Shown: in pieces, positions 28,111-29,788 of the stretch | How positions within the stretch are numbered: position 1 is the first letter of the stretch | Layout of the letters: each line of letters opens with the position of its first letter | Assembly (NCBI RefSeq): GCF_003544915.1 | Contig: NZ_CP032097.1 | Span: 2,480,001 to 2,544,000 of the forward strand | Direction: 5' to 3' | Source of the DNA: Arcobacter ellisii | GTDB taxonomy: Bacteria > Campylobacterota > Campylobacteria > Campylobacterales > Arcobacteraceae | Length of the DNA: 64,000 bases | The notes under the pieces: generated by a model | The model's input: only the letters and a program-made list of their open reading frames with translations | What the model was told of the DNA's origin: nothing | Databases searched by the model: none | Made by a program: the position numbers and the translations under genes

Positions 28111-28163
28111 CTTTTCAAAAAATCTACAAAAAAGATATAAGAGTAAAAAAGTCCTAAAATAGC

Positions 28164-28232
28164 ATTAACACAGCATTATTTTGCTGTTAATTAAAAAATA
28201 ACTTAAATTAACAGTTAATTAACACAGAATTA
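28164..28232 (+). promoter_or_regulatory. Cluster of AATTAAC / ATTAACACAG repeats upstream of the porin promoter
   Basis: ATTAACACAGCATTA (28164-28178) and ATTAACACAGAATTA (28218-28232) are near-identical copies 54 bases apart. The first is also one arm of an imperfect inverted repeat with TGCTGTTAA (ending 28190). AATTAAC occurs at 28206 and 28217, 11 bases apart, like the cco promoter repeats. They sit just upstream of a likely -10 (TAAAAT, 28251-28256). Regulator binding is inferred. Confidence 0.55.
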
Positions 28233-28259
28233 ATGATTTTAAGAAAACTTTAAAATTTA

Positions 28260-28366
28260 GTGGTGTAGAATGGTCGCAACGGTATGTCGGAAAAGGTTTA
28301 AAACCTATGTTTTAGATGAGTTCGCGCGCTCCGGTAGACTGATAATAGATTTCGAAATTTTAGGAG
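28260..28366 (+). promoter_or_regulatory. GC-rich structured 5' leader of the porin mRNA (candidate cis-regulatory RNA)
   Basis: About 46% of bases 28261-28340 are G or C, against about 20% in the 120 bases before. CGGTATGTCGGA (28280-28291) pairs with TCCGGTAGACTG (28330-28341) over 12 positions with one A-G mismatch and three G-U pairs. Inside lie two mutually exclusive hairpins: AGGTT/AACCT (28294-28306) and TAAAAC/GTTTTA (28299-28314). CGCAA at 28275-28279 could pair with the loop around 28321-28326 as a pseudoknot. The SD AGGAG (28362-28366) is downstream. No known riboswitch consensus was recognised. Confidence 0.55.
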
Positions 28367-28371
28367 AACAA

Positions 28372-29727
28372 ATGAAAAAAATCGCAAAATTAAGTTTAGT
28401 AGCTGCTGTAGCAGTTGCAGGATTAACTTCAGCTAACGCTCAACCATTAGAAGAAGCAATCAAAAATGTAGACGTATCTGGATCTGTAGTTTATAGATAT
28501 AATGATTATAAAAATGATGTGGCTAATACAGCAAATCCAACAGCTACAAACACAAATAACTATAAAGTTGGATTAAATCTTTCTTCAAAAGTAAATGAAG
28601 ATGTTAAATTTAATTCAAGATTTGTTGTTGGTCAACCATCTAACACTGGTACTGGTGATGCTGGTTTTGCAACTTTAAATTCAAGTGATAATGCTGACCA
28701 AAATGTTGGTGTAGAGTTAACTAATGCTTATTTCGGATATACAGGTCTTGCTAATACAACTGTTAACGTTGGTAAACAAGGTTTAACAACTCCATGGACT
28801 GTTGCTTTAGATTCTGATGGAAATGAGCAAACTGGAACAGGAGTTTTAGCTCTTTCAACAGTTGGACCAGTAACTTTAGCTGGTGCATATTTCAATCAAA
28901 CAAATCTTAATGTTTCTTCAGATTCTGCAATGAATGGTGTAGCATTATATAAAAATAATAGAGCTGGAGCAACAGGAAATGGAAGTAATTTAGGTCATTC
29001 TAATGCAACTGTTGCGACTGTTATTGGTGATGATGCAGTAGATGGTTCATTAGATGTAGTAACATTAGGTGCAATTGGTACATTTGAACCAGTTACAGTT
29101 GATGCGTGGTATATTGATATAAATGATCTTGCTGATTCTTACACACTTGGTGCAAAAGCTGCTTTAGATTTATCTGGAATCAAATTTGGTGCAGATGCAA
29201 GATGGGCATCATTATCTTTAGATAAAGATGTTGCAACAGCATTAGATGTTGTTAATAATGCTACAAGCGGTACTAGTAGTGTAGTGGATACAAACACTAT
29301 GGCAAAACTTGTTCTAACAGCTGACGCAGGTTTAGTTGATGGAAAAATTGCTTATGGTATGACTGGTAAAGATGGTGGTTTAACTGCTTTAGATAATGAT
29401 GCGGTAACTACATTATTAGGTTGGAATTTAGCACTTAATGGTAAAACTGATGCTGATTATTGGCAAGCAGTATTAGGATTTGATATTTTATCAAACTTAA
29501 ACTTATCAGCTAACTATGGTAACTTACAATATATCGCTGCAGCAAATTCTACGACTGATATAGAAGAAGAAGAGGTGTATGCTCAATTATTATATAAAAT
29601 GAGTAAAAACTTCTCTACTTATGTAAGATACGGAACATATACTAAAGAAACAACAGCTGCTGGTGCTGCAACTGTTAAAGATAATGACGATACAAGAGGA
29701 AGATTACAAGTTGAATATACATTCTAA
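28372..29727 (+). CDS. Major outer-membrane porin (Campylobacterota MOMP type)
   Basis: An abundant outer-membrane beta-barrel porin. The start at 28372 was chosen because AGGAGAACA lies just upstream and MKKIAKLSLVAAVAVAGLTS begins a clear signal peptide, cleaved after ANA (residue 23). The mature 428 residues are rich in Gly, Asn, Asp and alternating beta strands, lack cysteine, and end in the outer-membrane signature VEYTF with terminal Phe. The frame stays open upstream to 28270, but that part is the structured leader. A strong terminator follows. Solute specificity is unknown. Confidence 0.85.
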   Translation: MKKIAKLSLVAAVAVAGLTSANAQPLEEAIKNVDVSGSVVYRYNDYKNDVANTANPTATNTNNYKVGLNLSSKVNEDVKFNSRFVVGQPSNTGTGDAGFATLNSSDNADQNVGVELTNAYFGYTGLANTTVNVGKQGLTTPWTVALDSDGNEQTGTGVLALSTVGPVTLAGAYFNQTNLNVSSDSAMNGVALYKNNRAGATGNGSNLGHSNATVATVIGDDAVDGSLDVVTLGAIGTFEPVTVDAWYIDINDLADSYTLGAKAALDLSGIKFGADARWASLSLDKDVATALDVVNNATSGTSSVVDTNTMAKLVLTADAGLVDGKIAYGMTGKDGGLTALDNDAVTTLLGWNLALNGKTDADYWQAVLGFDILSNLNLSANYGNLQYIAAANSTTDIEEEEVYAQLLYKMSKNFSTYVRYGTYTKETTAAGAATVKDNDDTRGRLQVEYTF

Positions 29728-29757
29728 TATTTTTAGAATTGTTTAACTTCTCTTTCG

Positions 29758-29788
29758 AAGGGTTGGGGTTTACTCCAACCCTTTTTTT
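29758..29788 (+). terminator. Intrinsic terminator of the porin gene
   Basis: AAGGGTTGG (29758-29766) pairs with CCAACCCTT (29775-29783), followed by a run of T's to 29788. GC-rich stem plus T tract: a classic strong terminator. Confidence 0.9.

Follow-up and report, generated by a model that had tools for sequence, protein, structure and literature searches.

The E. coli ompA mRNA carries a stem at its extreme 5' end, and a less structured region with the Shine-Dalgarno (SD) sequence follows it. Stem-loops of the ompA type are the E. coli precedent for 5' structures that stabilize an mRNA (PMC7509114). In Helicobacter pylori, the vacA mRNA is stabilized by a stem-loop in its 5' untranslated region (UTR), and disruption of this stem-loop cuts the half-life of the mRNA (PMC4843948). 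The RppH of Bacillus is described in a review as requiring at least two unpaired bases at the 5' end and as preferring three or more (PMC3997798). In addition, intergenic regions of Arcobacter sp. L were previously screened by GC content and length. According to the main text of that work, 38 regions were selected, of which 23 overlapped ORFs and one was an SRP RNA, while most other candidates were left unnamed because of their rarity and their restriction to the genus (Stav et al., 2019; PMC6429828).

The leader studied here precedes the major porin gene in a 64,000-nucleotide stretch of the Arcobacter ellisii genome (the window). A genome-wide Pfam search showed that this porin, of the Campylobacter major outer membrane protein (MOMP) family, is the only PF05538 match in the 2.8-Mb genome. 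The leader (28278–28371) is 94 bases long when counted from the first of two predicted starts. At 93–94 nt, it is long compared with the 5' UTRs of C. jejuni, whose lengths were reported as 30.6 nt on average with a range of 0 to 158 (PMC3847290). Its parts are given in Table 1. The GC content of 28261–28340 was 46.25%, compared with 19.3% for the 150 bases upstream (28111–28260) and 27.7% for the whole window. At least this GC content was found in 133 of the 63920 80-nt segments of the window, which were grouped in six islands. Thus, the GC-rich stretch in AT-rich surroundings noted in the preliminary description was confirmed by measurement. Its 12-position stem, here called P1, was also present as described, including its single A.G mismatch and its three G-U pairs, and was found to be conserved.

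Table 1. Features of the porin locus (positions in the window).
Feature	Position	Strand	Basis
Promoter repeat TTTAAG-N5-TTTAAA, HP1043/CosR-type direct repeat at the -35 position	28238–28254	+	Sequence
-10 element TAGAAT	28266–28271	+	A TANNNT chosen ahead of every one of the 54 leaders
Predicted transcription start (A or A)	28278–28279	+	Inferred from -10 spacing; 1–2 bases before P1
P1 5' strand, 5'-terminal stem	28280–28291	+	RNAalifold on 17 leaders, pair counts, strand-swap test
Internal-loop core, 5' strand AAAG	28292–28295	+	First column A in 54/54 distinct leaders
Hairpin P2 (28296–28304 with 28309–28317, loop 28305–28308)	28296–28317	+	Two-sided changes in 9/9 pairs, 54 leaders
Internal-loop core, 3' strand GUUCGCGCG, nearly invariant	28320–28328	+	Counts over 54 distinct leaders
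P1 3' strand	28330–28341	+	As for P1 5' strand
ATTTCGAAAT palindrome in AU-rich spacer	28349–28358	+	In most leaders; replaced or absent in some
Shine-Dalgarno AGGAG	28362–28366	+	Sequence; AGGAGA invariant in 57 rows of A4
Major porin (Campylo_MOMP, PF05538)	28372–29727	+	Pfam match, E 3e-33

A DNA search (E ≤ 0.001) against 60 related genomes yielded matches in 42 of them. In 17 of these 42, with the own genome counted in separately, nearly the whole region was covered, and many of the others matched at the gene start or promoter only. Seventeen close leaders, including that of the own genome, were aligned with MAFFT without regard to structure (A1). With no structure supplied, RNAalifold recovered from A1 both P1 (CGGU.UGUCGGA with UCCGGUA.ACUG) and the hairpin P2. 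Of the A1 pair cells, 97.3% were paired, 3 pairs showed two-sided changes (13 of 500 shuffles reached 3), and the covariation score was 0.131 versus 0.112 for shuffled alignments (9/500). These counts are only suggestive of a conserved structure. A covariance model built from A1 (R1, cut-off E ≤ 0.01) matched 70 of 104 Arcobacteraceae genomes, representing 14 of 20 genera, through full or reduced leaders that included the clade 2 forms. There was one such place per genome, except for G016, whose second place does not resemble the leader.

The larger alignment, A4, comprises 57 leaders, of which 54 are distinct, and is fitted to the structure of the model. L080, which is cut by a contig end, as well as L088, L091, L093, L094, L095, and the clade 2 rows, were excluded before counting. 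Among the 54 distinct leaders, 93.0% of 1033 pair cells were paired. The preliminary description had proposed that the porin is preceded by a structured leader RNA that acts in cis, to be checked by covariation in other Arcobacteraceae; such compensatory changes were found in the related porin leaders of A4, as 16 of the 20 pairs showed two-sided changes. The cells with two-sided changes numbered 151 versus 37.5 for shuffled alignments, the further pair types 47 versus 36.0, and the covariation score was 0.436 versus 0.189; none of these measures was reached by any of 500 shuffles. When the partners were slid by 1–3 columns, the covariation score did not exceed 0.101. The second P1 pair was G-U in 53 of the 54 leaders. 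A start codon and an N-terminus resembling a signal peptide, similar to that of the window porin, came after each of the 57 leaders; in 56 of them the frame ran on for 100 codons or more within the locus, while that of L053 stopped after 29.

Because A4 is fitted to the model structure, a strand-swap test that counts no pairs was added. The mean duplex energies of the strands from the same leader were -11.16 kcal/mol for P1 and -5.30 kcal/mol for P2, compared with -8.15 and -2.09 kcal/mol, respectively, for strands of different species. In a permutation test with strand limits taken from the A4 columns and relatedness left uncontrolled, none of 10000 permutations was as stable as the cognate strands for either helix. 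In a structure-blind alignment of 30 leaders (A6), the subgroups were shifted against one another at the P1 3' strand, and A6 was therefore excluded from the counts. In the structure-blind A1 and in A2 (see below), covariation was weaker than in A4, yet present. On this comparison of sequences, P1 and P2 exist as RNA helices.

HP1043 of Helicobacter binds two TTTAAG repeats with 5 bases between them, which replace the -35 box (PMC5253667). CosR is its relative in C. jejuni, and a homologue exists in Arcobacter (PMC3139631). The porin promoter (28238–28271) resembles such a target, with the direct repeat for the -35 box and TGTAGAAT as the -10 element. TTTAAG or NTTAAG, followed by N5 and TTTA, was found within 60 bases upstream in 47 of the 54 distinct leaders. 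The distance from the -10 element to the A of ACGG was 7 bases in 50 leaders, 6 in 3, and 4 in one. Given this nearly fixed spacing and the conservation of the HP1043/CosR-like repeat upstream, transcription very likely starts at 28278/28279, so that just 1–2 bases would protrude before P1. If the HP1043/CosR-type promoter is real, the main porin would be under an essential orphan regulator. Farther upstream, 28203–28224 (TTAAATTAACAGTTAATTAACA) contains more AT-rich direct repeats with an 11-base period, which are present in close relatives and absent from L024, L025, and L028. At the other end of the gene, a strong hairpin followed by a T run, similar to an intrinsic terminator, lies directly 3' of the porin (29757–29784). 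As this hairpin adjoins the gene end, the porin mRNA is probably a single-gene transcript.

The leaders of the family are not uniform. R1 had no match in 34 family genomes, of which 32 were inspected. Five of these had clade 2 leaders, eleven had a sister form (group B), two (G090 and G062) had the group A form, and G099 had another 5' hairpin; G064 was uncertain, the leader of G034 was not recognizable, and in the remaining eleven no MOMP gene was detected. The outer stem of group B is formed by AACAUUGUG with CACAAUUGUU, with variants in L174 and L181, and most group B leaders possess a further inner stem, e.g., CUGGA with UCCAG. L178, L180, L183, and L185 contain P2 and a core that reads UUGCGC(A/G)UCC, while the others have near forms or, in the case of L184, none. 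TANNNT was found 7–9 bases ahead of ACATTGT in 10 of the 11. By our reading of architecture and core rather than by a model score, group B appears to be homologous to group A.

The leaders of clade 2 are shorter, lack P2 and the core, and possess a 5' stem of other sequence at the same place. In a MAFFT alignment of 12 of them (A2), from which L021 was omitted as it is identical to L020 in the stretch used, 92.7% of the cells were paired, 3 pairs had two-sided changes (41/500), and the covariation score was 0.233 versus 0.153 for shuffled alignments (2/500). A 5' stem is kept even without core and P2, as in L184, clade 2, and L093. Full, sister, and reduced leaders all have a stem at the predicted 5' end, after which come an AU-rich spacer and the SD; 5' stabilizers such as that of ompA have this design. 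Within the spacer, most of the Arcobacteraceae MOMP leaders seen carry the ATTTCGAAAT palindrome directly before the SD, and part of genus g33 has ACAAATTTGTAA in its place.

A covariance model from A4 (R3) was used in a search of 398 genomes of the order, with strict filters and E ≤ 0.05. It matched 36 genomes, of which 34 are Arcobacteraceae. The two matches outside the family (G216, E 0.011; G250, E 0.040) are at about chance level, were followed by genes that by our reading are not porins, and were rejected. The exact sequence pattern was found in 30 stretches of a wider contig collection, of which R3 confirmed 16, while the other 14 fit the pattern and not the model. Fifteen of the confirmed stretches were labelled Campylobacterota and one just "bacterium"; they include records of Aliarcobacter, Arcobacter caeni, and Poseidonibacter. 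Read by eye, the MOMP genes of other families (L143–L159), by our reading largely of Campylobacter/Helicobacter type, mostly had no such leader, and mostly had a -10-like box about 25–45 bases before the start codon. Three of them (L143–L145) have a short inverted repeat around AATTTCGAAATT ahead of the MOMP SD. Exact matches to AATTTCGAAATT numbered zero in the A. ellisii genome, whose palindrome reads GATTTCGAAATT.

No match to Rfam 15 at the gathering threshold was found in the window or in 8 loci with diverse leaders, in agreement with the earlier statement that the leader matches no familiar riboswitch consensus. At E up to 10, a search of 28170–28420 gave two matches, both far below the gathering scores. 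By title and abstract, no recognizable paper on the porin leader was found among the papers searched, and it may be listed in the supplements of Stav et al. (2019). Their unnamed Arcobacter sp. L candidates are likewise intergenic regions of an Arcobacter genome, chosen as possible structured RNAs by GC content and length, and they may include the porin leader (PMC6429828). We file the leader as an RNA family absent from Rfam, of a known kind and with an unusual core.

This core is an asymmetric internal loop between P1 and P2. The loop has an A-rich 5' strand and, in 50 of the 54 distinct leaders, a 3' strand with the sequence GUUCGCGCG; GTTCGCGCG was present in 50, TTCGCGCG in 51, and TTCGCG (UUCGCG) in 53. 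GTTCGCGCG occurs once in the own genome. The position right after the core is a single-base indel, with C in 34 leaders, T in 3, and a gap in 17. In 3 of the 54 leaders, an A takes the place of the final G of the core, and L090 reads UUCGCACA; a homodimer formed through the CGCGCG palindrome was considered and dropped on these grounds.

Folding of the window sequence by itself gave no signal. For 28278–28390, 150 of 200 dinucleotide shuffles folded at least as well (z +0.70), and for 28260–28371, 115 of 200 did (z +0.27). In the minimum free energy structure predicted by RNAfold for the window sequence, P1 was replaced by other pairing, and the mean pair probabilities were 0.01 for P1 and 0.99 for P2. 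Mean pair probabilities above 0.5 were obtained for P1 in 43 and for P2 in 49 of the 54 leaders. The predicted openness of the SD was moderate at most, with a mean unpaired probability of 0.55 and values below 0.5 in 29 of the 54 leaders.

The preliminary description had also suggested a switch between two mutually exclusive hairpins and a possible pseudoknot. Of the hairpins, that at 28299–28314 is the inner part of the conserved P2, but that at 28294–28306 was not conserved, as 73.3% of its 75 cells were paired and none showed two-sided changes. The fold preferred by RNAfold, in which the core pairs with the P1 5' strand, was likewise rejected: its covariation was at shuffle level (0.121 versus 0.117; 101/500), and one of its pairs was broken in 33 of the 54 leaders. 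No terminator-like site was listed between the leader and the porin gene. An anti-SD strand was not kept, as the P1 3' strand beside the core reads UCC, CCC, UCU, or UUC, and CUCC upstream of the SD was found in 33 of the 54 leaders. The two-fold switch was thus not supported. Nor was the proposed pseudoknot: most of its arm (28275–28279) falls upstream of the predicted start, and the first bases of this arm vary among relatives.

Among the alternatives named earlier, a stability element fits best. We consider it about an even chance that the leader is a 5'-terminal structure that stabilizes the porin mRNA, with the core providing, in addition, a place for a trans factor to dock. In the proposed mechanism, the closed 5' end, with 1–2 bases protruding before P1, would hinder pyrophosphate removal and the entry of RNase J from the 5' end. 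The blocked entry would keep the abundant porin mRNA stable. The factor bound by the invariant core, more probably a protein or small molecule than an antisense RNA, would adjust mRNA stability or translation, and the lineages without the core would carry a plain stabilizer. Given that the RppH of Bacillus requires at least two unpaired bases, a stem that leaves 1–2 would be expected to hinder the RppH step. RNase J is present in the own genome (646.9 bits), and RNase E/G was not detected there. For a stabilizer speak the conserved helix found in the 5' UTR, with the pair counts of A1 and A4 and the strand swaps, as well as the position of P1 at a nearly fixed distance from the -10 element (7 bases in 50/54) and hence at the predicted 5' end, and the stems of other sequence found there in clade 2 and group B. 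Against a stabilizer alone stands the core, which a plain stabilizer does not need and which is left unexplained; because the core exceeds this need, we infer a bound factor. In addition, the other fold predicted by RNAfold for the window sequence and the moderate predicted openness of the SD argue against a stabilizer, and the other-family MOMP genes and G034 do without a recognizable leader.

Similar to the ompA 5' UTR, the porin leader belongs to the mRNA of a major outer-membrane protein and is proposed to protect it from 5'-end-dependent decay; the likeness is one of design. Different from it, the porin leader has a nearly invariant internal loop and lies in a genome with RNase J and no detected RNase E/G. 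The vacA stem-loop is alike in being a 5' UTR stem-loop of a campylobacterotal mRNA; it belongs to another gene and family (PMC4843948). The porin leader is a structured RNA that extends through most of one bacterial family and belongs to the gene for the main surface pore protein, in organisms in which post-transcriptional control has received little study. Its full, sister, and reduced forms are a natural set of variants for asking which partner the nearly invariant core binds and whether abundant mRNAs are guarded by 5' stems in bacteria with RNase J, as they are in those with RNase E.

Tentatively, and with rather less than even probability, the leader might instead be a sensor RNA of a new class, in which the AAAG/GUUCGCGCG loop binds a metabolite, an ion, or a dedicated protein that reports the state of the outer membrane or of nutrients, and gates the access of RNase J to the 5' end of the porin mRNA without a terminator or an SD-sequestering platform. 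That a site for an RNA-binding protein, such as a post-transcriptional porin repressor, is the main function rather than stability seems unlikely. The same core and stem features, and the single target gene per genome in nearly all genomes, would suit such a site, but no candidate protein was identified. GGA is the motif of CsrA-type proteins. That in the P1 5' strand was not kept, as L076 and L078 read CAAGAAAG.

A riboswitch or other ligand sensor, in which a metabolite or ion bound by the core alters how open the 5' end or the ribosome site is, seems unlikely too. The nearly invariant loop between two covarying helices (TTCGCG in 53/54) looks like a binding pocket, and the absence of the core from some lineages resembles the loss or late gain of a regulatory input. 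A conserved expression platform was not found, however, given that terminator, competing fold, and anti-SD were all negative, and the leader precedes one gene per genome in nearly all genomes.

Leaders of porin mRNAs are common targets of small RNAs in other bacteria, and the core is GC-rich. A target site for a base-pairing small RNA, which had been named before as an alternative, is nevertheless improbable here. A search of the own genome for the reverse complement of GTTCGCGCG found none. With only perfect complements counted, TTCGCGCG had 82 matches over the 52 genomes searched of the 104 in the family, which after subtraction of the leader in 46 left 36. The reversed control pattern had 62, so that the core showed no overall excess of perfect 8-nt complements elsewhere. 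The 62 control matches came mostly from several GC-richer genomes, and the 11 core-bearing genomes of the own genus had 7 further TTCGCGCG matches versus 4 of the control. An antisense RNA thus seems the less likely partner of the core. Finally, it is highly improbable that the conservation reflects a translated leader peptide instead of RNA structure. In 27 of the 54 leaders, an ATG precedes the core by at most 3 nt, and an ORF of at least 8 codons spans the core in 31. However, 23 have no such ORF, and the core falls into different frames (24, 10, and 3 cases, with two in some leaders). In addition, the one-base indel directly follows the core, the helices covary, and no start codon and frame were conserved over the 54 leaders.

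One further occurrence was seen in G116, where a second porin-like gene is associated with a weak R3 match (L109, 497–591; E 0.019) that contains a hairpin, GCGCG, and AATTTCGAAATCTAGGGAG. This may perhaps be a diverged second copy of the leader.
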